Shown piece after piece: positions 3,050 through 25,920 of a stretch of DNA of 29,601 nt. How positions within the stretch are numbered: the first letter of the stretch is position 1; every line of letters starts with the position of its first letter. The notes under the pieces were generated by a model. The model was not told where the DNA came from. It worked only from the letters and a program-made list of their open reading frames with translations, and made no database searches. Source of the DNA: a virus. Both the position numbers and the translations under genes were made by a program. Location: positions 1 to 29,601 of the IMG/VR virus record IMGVR_UViG_3300020213_000091. One strand, 5' to 3'.

Positions 3050-4303
3050 CTAGGAAACGTCCCTCTTAAAATACGGAACGTTATCGTTCGCGGCGTCCAT
3101 GATCGCCACGCGCACGCGCGACACCTCGCCAAAATCGCGATGGTAAGTGATCGTCTGCATCGACCGGCCGGACAGGAAGCCGGCGCCGTAATGCCACGCA
3201 TCTTGTGGGATCGGCGCCTGGTGTGTTTCCGTGATTACGCCGTTGCCTTCCGTGGCGTATTTAGATGCGTGGTGAATGTGAAACGAGTGGATGTAGCGAT
3301 GCTGCGTCGCGCCCCAATCTTCCGCGCGCCGGTGGGCCATGATGGCTGCCATGTCCTTGGCCTTCACAGTGTGGCCGTGCGTCGCGCCCAGCATCACCCT
3401 GCCAAAACGGTGCCAAAAGAAGAGCGATGCGTCGACGTCAACCGTTACGCGCGGCTCGTTGCGGTACCAGGCCATCAGGAAGTAAGCGACCGCAACTGCG
3501 GTCTGTTCGTCATGATTGCCCTTAAGAATACGAACAATCACGCGCCGGTTATTGCGCAGCGCTGCATCAATGGCGCGAACCTTAAGCCGGCACGCAACCT
3601 CTAAGCCTTTTTGATGCCGGCCATCCGTGTCCAGCACGTTACCGGATCGCGCCGTGCGGTTTTCGTTATTGTCGCTGTGCTGCAAGTCGCCGCCGCCCAG
3701 GACGATCATCGCGCCGCTTGGCGGGGATCGCATAATGGCGTCTTCAATGCCGCGGCCAATCACGCGCTCCGCGATGTTCAAATCCCAATTTTCGCTGGAC
3801 TCCCGCTTCCATACCAGGAGGTTCACATGCCAGTCATTGCAAGGCGCCAGCGTCAGCAATTCATCAGACGCGGCCGGCTCCGGGACCGGCGACGCACATG
3901 GCGCATAATCCGCAAACGCGATCTTAAGCGTTTCCGCAATGTCGACCGCGCTTGGCTCCTCCCGCGTCTTGATCCACTTGTTGATGACACGGCCTTCCGC
4001 ATCGACCAGCGCGGATTCGCCTTTTACGACATGCCCGGTCGGTACGTCATATTCCCGGCCGGGCTCCTTGGTTTGCTTCACCCAGGAGCCGTCCGCCGCC
4101 TTGCTGGCGATGGACTTGATCGCGTAGCCCGGCAGTACCGGCGCCGTGCCCAGCATGCCGCGTTCGGCAGCGCGCTTAAGACGGCTGTTTAGCGTTGAGC
4201 GCGGGATGCCAAGCGCGTCAGCGGCGGATTGCGCGGATTCATGCTGCGCGCGCGCAGCAACGGCTTCCGCGATCTGTTCGTCAGTAAGCGAGGCGACTCC
4301 CAT
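3050..4303 (-). CDS. Metallophosphoesterase with N-terminal helix-turn-helix
   Basis: The start chosen is the ATG at 4303, which overlaps the stop of the previous gene as TAATG, giving 417 residues. Residues 6-50 form a helix-turn-helix (LTDEQIAEAVAAR, then AADALGIPRSTLNSRLKRA). From about residue 150 calcineurin-like phosphoesterase motifs follow in order: DWHV (157-160), GGGDLQHSDN (203-212), GNHDE (262-266), HGH (309-311), and HIHH (342-345). These supply the metal ligands of a two-metal phosphodiesterase. Proteins with this two-part layout occur in phages, probably as DNA-targeted nucleases or phosphodiesterases. The substrate is unknown, and the DNA-binding role is inferred from the N-terminal motif. 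Confidence 0.8.
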   Translation of the reverse strand: MGVASLTDEQIAEAVAARAQHESAQSAADALGIPRSTLNSRLKRAAERGMLGTAPVLPGYAIKSIASKAADGSWVKQTKEPGREYDVPTGHVVKGESALVDAEGRVINKWIKTREEPSAVDIAETLKIAFADYAPCASPVPEPAASDELLTLAPCNDWHVNLLVWKRESSENWDLNIAERVIGRGIEDAIMRSPPSGAMIVLGGGDLQHSDNNENRTARSGNVLDTDGRHQKGLEVACRLKVRAIDAALRNNRRVIVRILKGNHDEQTAVAVAYFLMAWYRNEPRVTVDVDASLFFWHRFGRVMLGATHGHTVKAKDMAAIMAHRRAEDWGATQHRYIHSFHIHHASKYATEGNGVITETHQAPIPQDAWHYGAGFLSGRSMQTITYHRDFGEVSRVRVAIMDAANDNVPYFKRDVS

Positions 4304-24133: not shown

Positions 24134-24172
24134 TGTTGCTTTTCCTACAGTAGTTGACGTCGCGTTAGCCTA

Positions 24173-24505
24173 TTACGCAGCCACAACCGCGGTCTGCCGC
24201 AGGATCGTTGTGTTGCCTGAGATCGTCGGGACGTAAGGGACGAGCGTCACGGCAAGGCCGGTTGCTGCGGCCATCTTGGTCATGACGGGGTCGACGCCGT
24301 ACATTCGTACGGGCGGGGTGGCCGCTGCTATGACAGGCTTGGCATCCGGCGGCGAGGTGCCGGCGAAAGAATGCCATTCAGCGATAAACGCGGCAACGCG
24401 AGTAAGTTCGCGCCGTCGTTCGTCCAGCTTTTGCTGGAGTGAGTTGATTTCGGCGGCCAATACATCCTGGCGGGCTTGAGCGTTGTTCAAAGCGTCGTCA
24501 GCCAT
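24173..24505 (-). CDS. Small coiled-coil protein upstream of the prohead protease
   Basis: The ATG at 24505 is 8 bases after GGGGGA and gives 110 residues; the open frame extends to 24571 but the extra sequence lies in a hairpin. The N-terminal half is a coiled coil (ALNNAQARQDVLAAEINSLQ, then QKLDERRRELTRVAAFIAEW). The C-terminal half is hydrophobic and threonine/proline-rich (AAATGLAVTLVPYVPTISGN). This resembles small scaffold- or chaperone-like proteins near capsid genes, but no family is recognised. Its ribosome-binding site can pair with an upstream strand (24513-24560), so translation may be regulated. Confidence 0.6.
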   Translation of the reverse strand: MADDALNNAQARQDVLAAEINSLQQKLDERRRELTRVAAFIAEWHSFAGTSPPDAKPVIAAATPPVRMYGVDPVMTKMAAATGLAVTLVPYVPTISGNTTILRQTAVVAA

Positions 24506-24512
24506 ACCGATG

Positions 24513-24560
24513 TTCCCCCGATGGTCCACAAACCATAACAGAAACGAATCTGTGGGGGAA
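24513..24560 (-). promoter_or_regulatory. Hairpin sequestering the ribosome-binding site of the 24173-24505 gene
   Basis: On the minus strand the TTCCCCC of 24554-24560 can pair with GGGGGAA of 24513-24519, the Shine-Dalgarno of the 110-residue gene. An adjoining CCACA/TGTGG pairing (24551-24555 with 24526-24530) gives an alternative register. Both close over a 20-base loop, so initiation could be masked unless the stem is opened. Confidence 0.5.
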
Positions 24561-24561
24561 G

Positions 24562-24604
24562 ATACATTCACGCCGCGAATCCGTCTTGCGGCGGATGAGT
24601 GTAT
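24562..24604. other. Hairpin overlapping the -35 side of the + strand promoter
   Basis: CGCCGC (24571-24576) pairs with GCGGCG (24588-24593) around an 11-base loop, and ATACA (24562-24566) pairs with TGTAT (24600-24604). The inverted repeat overlaps the -35 region of the candidate promoter at 24604-24612, so it could be an operator in DNA form or a stem in minus-strand RNA. Confidence 0.4.
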
Positions 24605-24612
24605 GGCATAAT
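24586..24612 (+). promoter_or_regulatory. Candidate + strand promoter with extended -10
   Basis: CATAAT (24607-24612) matches TATAAT at five of six bases and is preceded by TG one base away (24604-24605), an extended -10. TTGCGG (24586-24591) is a weak -35 at 15-base spacing. Transcription would begin near 24619, just before the run of hairpins and the 33-codon ORF. Judged by inspection. Confidence 0.45.
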
Positions 24613-24618
24613 GCGTTA

Positions 24619-24815
24619 ATCGTCGTCCTGGTCGAGTTCGACCCGGCGAGGCTCTTGGCGGAGCCAGACCGGGTCGAGTTCAGGTGTCAGAAACCGGCAT
24701 GATCAGGGCACACCGGACTGACAGGAACCGTGGTTTGGGCCACCAGAGTTCCGGTGGTCTTTATACCCATTCCCGCTCATCGACGCAAGCCGTGCTCATT
24801 TTAAGGAGCACGAAA
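24619..24815 (+). ncRNA. Candidate structured leader or regulatory RNA with serial hairpins
   Basis: In 197 bases there are four main hairpins. H1: GACCCGG (24640-24646) with CCGGGTC (24669-24675), inner GGCTC/GAGCC. H2: TGTCAG/CTGACA (24685-24690, 24718-24723), inner CCGG/CCGG. H3: CCACC/GGTGG (24740-24744, 24753-24757), extended by G-T pairs that work only in + strand RNA and followed by TCTTTAT. H4: CGTGCTC/GAGCACG (24791-24797, 24806-24812), covering half of the AAGGAG ribosome-binding site. Two alternatives are mutually exclusive with these: GGTCG-AGTT-CGACC (24630-24643) against H1, and GGAAC/GTTCC plus GTGG/CCAC (24724-24752) against H3. No coding frame explains the sequence. A match to a known RNA family is not recognised. 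Confidence 0.5.
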
Positions 24816-24917
24816 ATGACGTTGAGCAGCAAAATACGCCATTGGGTTCAGGCTTACGTTCGGGTCCGCTTTGGCAAACTCGAGCACGTTTGCGGTCACT
24901 GGCGCAGCTGCGGCTAA
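24816..24917 (+). CDS. 33-residue basic protein on the antisense strand of the head operon
   Basis: The ATG at 24816 follows AAGGAG by 7 bases, an excellent ribosome-binding site, and the ORF ends at TAA 24915-24917, overlapping tail-to-tail with the stop of the opposing gene. The product, MTLSSKIRHWVQAYVRVRFG then KLEHVCGHWRSCG, is basic and aromatic with two cysteines and two histidines near the end. The YVRxRFGKLExV stretch recalls short motifs in small phage proteins, but no named family is claimed. It is the only ORF served by the structured leader upstream, so it may be a leader peptide or a small regulator. Confidence 0.5.
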   Translation: MTLSSKIRHWVQAYVRVRFGKLEHVCGHWRSCG

Positions 24918-25108
24918 GGCCGTTTTGACGTTTGACGCTTAGGGCGTTCTGGCCGTCGAGGAGGATCATTCCCCGGCGGCCGCTTTGTTTTCGCCCGAAC
25001 GATACTAGCCTCAATCTCTTCGGGCTTCGTTGTGACAAAACGACTCAGGGCCTCCCCGAAGTCCATTTCGAGCCGCAGCGGCGGCTCCAGCTTGCGCGGG
25101 CCTGTCAT
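24914..25108 (-). CDS. Small basic phage protein
   Basis: This 64-residue product has an N-terminal motif, MTGPRKLEPPLRLEMDFGEA then LSRFVTTKPEEIEASI, followed by a lysine-, arginine- and proline-rich tail (KTKRPPGNDPPRRPERPKRQ). Short proteins with a PLRLxMDFxEALxRF-type core and basic tail are seen in many alphaproteobacterial phages and plasmids. The function is not established. The ATG overlaps the stop of the 25-residue gene as ATGA. The basic tail suggests nucleic-acid contact. Confidence 0.65.
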   Translation of the reverse strand: MTGPRKLEPPLRLEMDFGEALSRFVTTKPEEIEASIVRAKTKRPPGNDPPRRPERPKRQTSKRP

Positions 25109-25182
25109 GCGATCAGCGCCTTATACGTCAGCCGGCCTTCAACACAGGCGAAGAGGTCATTCATACGCGGCGTCGTCTTCAT
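25105..25182 (-). CDS. 25-residue micro-gene with ATGA overlaps at both ends
   Basis: The ATG at 25182 overlaps the stop of the upstream structural gene as ATGA, and its TGA (25105-25107) overlaps the next ATG the same way. The product is MKTTPRMNDLFACVEGRLTY followed by KALIA. Exact fitting between two genes with coupling signals on both sides makes translation likely despite the length. The sequence is compact and soluble-looking, with no family recognised. Confidence 0.5.
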   Translation of the reverse strand: MKTTPRMNDLFACVEGRLTYKALIA

Positions 25183-25469
25183 GTCGCGCCGGTAACCGCA
25201 TGGGTCGCGACCGTTAGCGTACCGGTAAGCGAAGTCGCCGCAGCCTGGATGGACGCGCTGATCTGCTTCCAAATCGAAATCCCAGAAACCGACGTCGTAT
25301 CCGTCGCCGTGTTCTTGGCATCCGTCTTGACGCCCAGCGCCAAATTGGCCGCTGCGTCATTGACCGCAAGTCCGTTTGCGCCAACGGCCGCCTTCTCCGT
25401 GCCGTCAAGCGTGCCGCTCATCAGTTTGACGAACTGAACCTTGACGGTTCCAAGCGTGCCGTCGACCAC
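25179..25469 (-). CDS. Virion structural protein whose normal start codon appears lost
   Basis: The annotated GTG start gives 96 residues: VDGTLGTVKVQFVKLMSGTL, then DGTEKAAVGANGLAVNDAAA and SGISIWKQISASIQAAATSL. This is a phage structural pattern. Twenty in-frame codons upstream of the GTG also read like the family N-terminus (SADNVVVSAGTGTTVAADE). They reach an AAG codon at 25529-25527, 6 bases after AAAGG, exactly where an ATG would be expected. A single T-to-A change in the start codon would explain this. Translation may start at the internal GTG or at a non-canonical codon, or the gene may be impaired. Its stop overlaps the 25-residue gene. Confidence 0.6.
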   Translation of the reverse strand: MVDGTLGTVKVQFVKLMSGTLDGTEKAAVGANGLAVNDAAANLALGVKTDAKNTATDTTSVSGISIWKQISASIQAAATSLTGTLTVATHAVTGAT

Positions 25470-25527
25470 CTCATCAGCCGCGACGGTCGTTCCCGTCCCG
25501 GCTGAAACTACTACGTTGTCAGCCGAC

Positions 25528-25644
25528 TTAAGAAGCCTTTGTCAAAATAAGAAGCAATCCAATGGGCTCACCGGCCGTACTAGCAGCAGCAGCCGCTGCC
25601 CGCCGGCACCGGCCAACCCCAATCAAAAGTCCAACGAAAGCCAT
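25528..25644 (-). CDS. 38-residue hydrophobic micro-gene
   Basis: The ATG at 25644 directly follows the TAA of the spike-base-like gene (no gap), and the ORF ends at TAA 25528-25530. The product, MAFVGLLIGVGRCRRAAAAA then ASTAGEPIGLLLILTKAS, has two short hydrophobic stretches separated by a basic and alanine-rich centre. Similar tiny ORFs with an LLLILTKAS-type end appear between decoration genes in related phages as far as I can judge from pattern alone. Function unknown. Confidence 0.45.
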   Translation of the reverse strand: MAFVGLLIGVGRCRRAAAAAASTAGEPIGLLLILTKAS

Positions 25645-25908
25645 TTAATAAAACCCGCGAATGCCAGTGGCAGTCGTGCTAGTGGAATTCACGCGCTGTA
25701 CACGCCATGGCCGCCGCTCGCCGGCGCCTACAGGCTCGACCGTGGTCGTCCCATCGGCCCAAAGCACCGAAACGTTGCCTGCGCCTGCAACGTAAATCTC
25801 GCGCGTAACTTGCGACAAAAGAGTCACGTCATGCGGCGTAATCGCGCCTAACGCGCCGATCAGCGGAGACGTAAGCCCCGCGCTATGATTTCCAAAAACA
25901 TCAGCCAA
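25645..25908 (-). CDS. Spike-base-like decoration protein
   Basis: This 87-residue protein has the pattern of the GTA spike-base (RCAP_rcc01079-type) domain: GLTSPLIGALGAITPHDVTL, then VTREIYVAGAGNVSVLWADG and WRVQRVNSTSTTATGIRGFY. It starts at TTG 25908 with AGGGA about 7 bases upstream, 12 bases after the portal stop. In GTAs the related domain anchors capsid spikes; in phages similar short proteins are usually uncharacterised. Position after the portal fits a head surface or vertex protein. This is inference from pattern similarity. Confidence 0.65.
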   Translation of the reverse strand: MADVFGNHSAGLTSPLIGALGAITPHDVTLLSQVTREIYVAGAGNVSVLWADGTTTVEPVGAGERRPWRVQRVNSTSTTATGIRGFY

Positions 25909-25920
25909 AACAAATTCCCT

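Follow-up and report, generated by a model that had tools for sequence, protein, structure and literature searches.

ptaRNA1 (RF01811) is an antisense RNA that belongs to a putative type I toxin-antitoxin system. In the type I system SymE/SymR, a cis antisense RNA acts on the 5' UTR of the message for the toxin SymE, which is no membrane peptide, and in the AapA1 mRNA long-distance 5'-3' pairing is combined with sequestration of the Shine-Dalgarno (SD) sequence (PMC8167048). Compatibility among plasmid copy-control RNAs is set by bases of the top loop and the interior loop (PMC10724649), and UUGGCG is the motif named in the title of the study of ColIb-P9 Inc RNA binding by Asano, Niimi and Yokoyama (1998; PMC10724649). 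The toxin SocB acts on the bacterial sliding clamp, for which the binding motif is QL(S/D)LF (PMC9690074), and RipA likewise acts on the clamp (PMC12795458).

The window (the whole 29.6-kb stretch of viral DNA that was analysed) carries a leftward head operon consisting of terminase, portal, protease (Peptidase_S78), and capsid genes. A first-pass annotation had placed a + strand unit opposite this operon, with a promoter, a structured leader, a half-masked SD, and a small ORF, and all of these elements were present (Table 1). Judging from the sequence, this is probably an antisense-controlled microprotein unit in mobile DNA that works like a type I toxin-antitoxin module. The unit described by the first-pass annotation is real; its strand logic was misread there, and the attenuator reading is probably wrong.

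Table 1. Features of the microprotein unit and of the insert in which it lies (positions in the window).
Feature	Position	Strand	Basis or remark
Insert between portal and protease, ~1.8 kb	24134-25920		Contains the microprotein unit and small head-strand ORFs
Extended -10 TGGCATAAT, proposed mRNA promoter	24604-24612	+	Sequence; PWM 7.1; start near 24619
Recognition hairpin P0, GACCCGG...GGCTC-TTGGCG-GAGCC...CCGGGTC	24640-24675		Loop UUGGCG in mRNA, CGCCAA in antisense
Middle hairpin TGTCAG...CTGACA	24685-24723		Fold -12.9 kcal/mol
Hairpin called a terminator in the first-pass annotation	24740-24757		-6.9 kcal/mol on +
SD-masking hairpin CGTGCTC-ATTTTAAG-GAGCACG	24791-24812	+	-10.5 kcal/mol; half of AAGGAG inside
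Shine-Dalgarno AAGGAG	24803-24808	+	Sequence
33-residue microprotein MTLSSKIRHWVQAYVRVRFGKLEHVCGHWRSCG	24816-24917	+	PHROG_21154 family; predicted four-strand beta meander
Weak site resembling an intrinsic terminator, CGGCTAAGGCCG-TTTT	24911-24926	+	-5.1 kcal/mol; overlaps ORF stop codon
Antisense promoter TTGCGT-17-TATAAA	-35 24788-24783, -10 24765-24760	-	Score 7.4; expected start near 24753
Predicted antisense RNA, ~115 nt to end of P0	24638-24753	-	Fold z -6.0; strongly covarying orthologous RNAs

Portal and protease genes lie side by side, with no insert, in five related phages, and in L002 the two ORFs share a 4-nt overlap. The closest phages retain the head operon and lack the entire 1.8-kb insert. 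The best reading of the window unit is that of a moron-like accessory insert between portal and protease. A DNA similarity search with the window unit against phage records returned no match, and a tRNA/tmRNA search of the window found none. On the - strand, the insert also holds ORFs at 25645-25908, 25179-25469, and 24173-24505, which have no clear family match.

The 33-codon ORF reported by the first-pass annotation proved to be a real gene. It matched the PHROG_21154 profile (HMM, E=1.1e-7), as did 42/42 aligned family members, and third codon positions held 55-95% of the changes in the family alignment, depending on identity class, indicating that the family ORF is translated and is a genuine gene. 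The PHROG_21154 entry gives no function and no RNA component, and Pfam, NCBIfam, and PADLOC contained no family for the microprotein. Two scans of viral sequences yielded 53 and 57 family loci (overlapping sets), and bacterial genomes yielded at least 70, nearly all of them proteobacterial; further members were found on plasmids, in phages Oslo and phi-8, and in the Stx2 prophage Sp5. When genomes were sampled from the taxonomic family to which one betaproteobacterial member belongs, 6/201 carried the gene, as did 18/199 genomes from a Pseudomonas genus group, and one DNA variant was carried by 232/5426 complete E. coli genomes. The proteins are 28-55 aa long and share the consensus V.V.AY.R.RFGRxE.VC.HWRS.PgQLxLF, in which the stretch V.V.AY.R.RFGR.E.VC.HWRS is basic and polar, not a small hydrophobic membrane peptide of the sort found in most type I toxins. 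AlphaFold2 predicted a four-strand beta meander with a mean pLDDT of 84.7 (near 95 for residues 11-30), and fold searches returned nothing informative except the homologue H0092 of phage VT2-Sa. In the open-access papers that the search covered, there was no description of the microprotein family or of RNAs around ECs1182-1184, and the antisense/microprotein unit appears to lack any earlier description as a system. One viral contig, L036, carries two different members with different leaders (1794-1904 and 3983-4096). Another member, in the low-GC phage contig L038 (3992-4090), has a strong AGGAGGTGATGG ribosome site and is perhaps from outside the Proteobacteria.

On the + strand of the window, the extended -10 element proposed for the mRNA was found as described, with a weak -35. 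The back-to-back hairpins reported upstream of the ORF were likewise present over 24625-24812 and were more stable than dinucleotide shuffles (z -3.5, 0/200), and on the - strand the excess in stability was larger still (z -6.0, 0/200). The earlier argument that G-T pairs favour a + transcript does not hold: structure on the - strand is no weaker, so G-U pairs cannot settle the strand. The alternative pairings suggested earlier are allowed by the repeat CCTGGTCGAGTTC/CCGGGTCGAGTTC at 24627 and 24669, and the final hairpin does cover half of AAGGAG. The middle hairpin is probably the counterpart of the TGACAG/CTGTCA domain in the relatives L101 and L068. Most loci have a stronger terminator at the ORF end than the window, which contains no strong terminator to stop convergent transcription toward the head genes. 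Regulated translation of the ORF is likely the point of the + strand unit.

For 75 non-redundant members, the upstream 300 nt were scanned for sigma70-type promoters, with expectations taken from dinucleotide shuffles. The best-conserved signal of the leaders was a promoter that opposes the ORF: - strand hits were concentrated 51-70 nt upstream of the ATG (22 and 8 members in two bins versus 1.4 expected in each), so that 30/75 leaders carried it versus ~3 expected. No + strand bin was comparably prominent in the same scan of 75 leaders. The consensus of 44 non-redundant - strand elements was TTG[CA][CA]N-17/18-TANAAT with a median -10 position of -57.5; because these elements were selected by score, the consensus partly mirrors the scan, whereas the position does not. 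Terminators on the - strand (dG <= -15 kcal/mol followed by T's) were detected in 20/44 cases, compared with 1/44 on the + strand and 1.6 in shuffles, and A-runs on the + strand peaked at -160 to -180. The predicted antisense RNA, which runs away from the ORF, had a median length of ~96 nt to the T-run. The spacing between this promoter and the ORF was fixed over alpha-, beta-, and gammaproteobacterial members whose sequences differ greatly, and several alphaproteobacterial members lacked the promoter. Leaders without a co-directional upstream gene were enriched for + promoters of their own in the -260 bin (8 versus 1.5), with a weaker excess in the -140 bin (5 versus 2.0); units behind a co-directional gene are probably transcribed by readthrough from that gene.

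The antisense promoter of the window was the second-best - strand hit by score and unremarkable when taken alone; we accepted it because its position equals that of the conserved - strand promoter of the relatives. This promoter changes the meaning of the hairpin that the first-pass annotation had read as a terminator followed by TCTTTAT. The hairpin was missed by the terminator scan, and the TATAAA -10 is the reverse complement of its tail region. Given where it lies relative to the - strand promoter, it likely forms the 5' hairpin of the predicted antisense transcript (- strand sequence CCACCGGAACTCTGGTGG). A T-run after P0 is absent from the window copy and from L215, so the antisense RNA may end elsewhere or continue into the head gene at 24173-24505. 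R1, the covariance model of the family RNA, is tuned to the beta/gamma group and gave no hit in the window. Given the weak promoter score, the missing T-run, and the absence of an R1 hit, the window case is based on homology and position. In L215 (MSAKACHWVGAYTRFRFGREEHVCGHWRCCW), the nearest relative of the window copy, TTGCGA occupies the matching -35 place, the -10 (TAACTC) is poor, and an SD hairpin of its own is present; P0 differs between the two copies by a single compensatory pair.

Compensatory changes, which the first-pass annotation had proposed to look for in homologous regions, were abundant in the relatives. An alignment of 21 antisense RNAs contained 13 pairs, 12 of which had double-sided changes; the alignment had been made without regard to the structure, but the structure itself was derived from it. 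Double-sided pair changes numbered 62 versus 20.6 after shuffling (0/500), and 89.7% of the paired positions could pair, versus 33-43% when the partners were slid. In P0, compared among five loci (window, L215, L101, L068, and L156), 10/10 compared pairs were kept and 9/10 had changed on both sides; because the pieces were picked by eye, this comparison is a pairing check and not a blind test. A covariance model built from the RNA alone, without the protein, produced four strong hits in genomes (67-86 bits), all with the ORF beside them and one in a new genome; in the held-out loci L009, L087, L237, L251, and L238, its scores at the expected site were 59-68 bits. We inspected 26 weaker genome hits (about 23-30 bits) as possible family members; none had the ORF beside it, and they were treated as chance terminators. 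The suggested search for a known structured-RNA family gave no Rfam match in the leader, either at gathering score or at E<=5.

The apical loop of P0 in the window message is UUGGCG. A U-turn (YUNR) in the antisense or the message loop was found in 22/60 members versus 11.2 for shuffled loops, the 60 including near-identical members. Lambdoid leaders that are otherwise near-identical carry the hairpin CAACTCCCCAGTCC in 20 loci and AGACTGGGGAGTTG in 10 (redundant loci), and these two variants are one base short of being exact reverse complements. The inverted-hairpin sets comprise L007, L011, and L164-L166 on one side and L008, L042, L163, and L168-L172 on the other, with loop GGGG versus CCCC. 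Such an inversion is expected if loop identity sets antisense specificity, and it is possibly a natural specificity switch; the variants could also have arisen by inversion at an inverted repeat without selection.

SD-upstream pairing probability averaged 0.67 in 76 members and 0.45 in 142 control genes (p=4e-8). Pairing of the leader with sequence just past the stop codon was found in some alphaproteobacterial-type members (L019, L083, L106, L102, and L081), most of which lack the antisense promoter. A long closing stem around the ORF, formed by the leader and post-stop sequence, was observed in L019, L071, L081, L083, L102, L106, and L110. General 5'-3' long-distance pairing was rejected as a family feature, as only a subset had it (6/83 below z -2.5) and the window gave z +1.1.

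The cI-N interval, which holds rex in lambda, contains the microprotein gene in Oslo, in phi-8, and in Sp5 of E. coli O157. The unit occurs in its relatives in immunity regions, on plasmids, and on chromosomes without head genes. PHROG neighbours include repressors, metallo-proteases, and integrases, and HigBA genes are neighbours in some contexts. The largest cluster of upstream genes (14/53) encodes ImmA-like HExxH proteases or HigA-type regulators, with domains partly read by eye. This ImmA-like HExxH metallopeptidase/HigA-type cluster (L009, L013, L043, L079, L080, L084, L085, L087, L088, L096, L099, L121, L140, and L175) ends about 160-200 nt before the unit. A radC RNA motif (RF01754; L091, 5290-5427, - strand) is located near a Pseudomonas member, L085 lies near an SRP RNA gene, and L069, L101, L121, and L180 lie near tRNA genes; these sites are likely integration sites. 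In L284 (E. coli O157 Sakai Sp5), the microprotein ORF lies downstream of ECs_1184 (2015-2536) and has no RefSeq CDS. The adjoining Sp5 gene ECs1184 was not deletable in a published screen (PMC5155283), a result that is suggestive only and has other explanations too.

The C-terminus may hint at a target. The tail Q[LM]x[LF] was present in 31/69 non-redundant members versus 0.28 in shuffled tails, an excess that shared ancestry also explains, with variants including QLSLF, QLNLF, QLTLPF, and QLAFDF. The microprotein may inhibit replication through this clamp-like tail; since the window copy ends in RSCG and lacks the tail, we regard replication inhibition as a lead and not as a finding.

In the mechanism that we propose, the microprotein gene would be read rightward with a long structured leader, in which a hairpin masks the SD. 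A short antisense RNA that overlaps the leader would be transcribed leftward, starting at a promoter that lies ~50 nt before the start codon. In lysogens, this RNA would bind the nascent leader, with the UUGGCG/CGCCAA loop pair as the first contact, and the microprotein would be kept untranslated by duplex formation, by RNase III cleavage, or by a block of the leader fold needed for translation. Upon loss of the antisense RNA, through loss or induction of the element or takeover by another phage, the protein would be made. The sequences themselves show the conserved family, the conserved opposing promoter, the covarying antisense RNA, the terminator bias, and the SD masking; transcription, antisense repression, and growth inhibition by the protein are steps that we infer. 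We do not claim membership in the type I toxin-antitoxin class, of which the antisense layout is supported by sequence. A more far-reaching version, in which the loci form an undescribed broad family of type I toxin-antitoxin modules of proteobacterial prophages, plasmids, and chromosomes, with a beta-meander toxin that docks on the clamp in many members and a specificity switched by hairpin flip, seems doubtful to us.

Antisense control could also govern a microprotein that is not a toxin but a dose-sensitive regulator or an exclusion factor, e.g., a replisome modifier or a phage exclusion protein. All the architectural evidence fits such a protein equally well, and the rex-like cI-N interval, the adjoining immunity proteases, and the small polar beta fold agree with it; we nevertheless consider it unlikely, because, in mobile elements, it is toxins that most typically have both a masked SD and an antisense RNA, and the failed deletion of ECs1184 in Sp5 points, if other explanations are set aside, in the same direction. 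It is still less probable that the - strand RNA acts in trans, as a divergent sRNA that is unrelated to expression of the ORF and only travels with it. Although no + promoter is common to all members and an RNA with its own terminator is a standard sRNA layout, the distance to the ORF is fixed across alpha-, beta-, and gammaproteobacterial members, strong hits of the RNA model always adjoin the ORF, and promoters for the message are enriched upstream of the leader where there is no co-directional gene.

The two functions considered in the first-pass annotation fared worse. A ligand- or protein-sensing attenuator or riboswitch before the small ORF would account for the strong + strand structure, the alternative pairings, and the half-masked SD, but it has become very improbable: no Rfam family matched, hairpin pairing was conserved while the sequences were not, there was no sequence-conserved aptamer core, and the weak terminator-like site coincides with the opposing -10 and is better taken as part of that promoter. 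The riboswitch was dropped as a candidate since only pairing was conserved and the strongest conserved signal was the opposing promoter. A + transcript acting as an antisense RNA on the head operon is scarcely credible; the unit does lie opposite head genes, with no strong terminator in the window, but relatives keep it at places without head genes, and the closest phages keep the operon without the 1.8-kb insert. As the unit persists without head genes, its conserved partner is its own message and the conserved regulatory RNA lies on the - strand.

Under the preferred reading of an antisense-controlled microprotein unit, a widespread, often unannotated family of no known function gains a proposed antisense partner and a control circuit that can be tested, and so becomes directly amenable to study. 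If the microprotein is a toxin, it would depart from the membrane-peptide pattern of type I toxins and might have DNA replication as its target, all within well-studied lambdoid prophages. The inverted-hairpin variants would be a natural case of antisense specificity changed by inversion.

Among known systems, ptaRNA1 resembles the present RNA in being an antisense RNA of beta/gammaproteobacterial mobile DNA, and RF01811 had no match in nine loci searched at E<=5, nor in the window and 20 loci searched at gathering score. The QL(S/D)LF-like tail of 31/69 non-redundant members recalls SocB and RipA, which belong to protein-protein toxin-antitoxin systems, whereas clamp binding is here a mere possibility raised by the tail, which the window copy lacks. 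AapA1/IsoA1 and Hok/Sok share SD sequestration with the unit, and long-distance pairing with its alphaproteobacterial-type subset; their toxins are hydrophobic, and long-distance pairing is not general here. The U-turn recognition hairpin and the UUGGCG loop are reminiscent of Inc RNA/RepZ (ColIb-P9) and CopA/CopT, which control replication initiators, whereas here a microprotein follows and there is no Rep gene. SymE/SymR differs in that no sequence relation was seen and the putative toxin here is a predicted beta meander of 28-55 aa, but it resembles the unit in having a small gene, a cis antisense RNA that pairs with the 5' UTR, and controlled translation.
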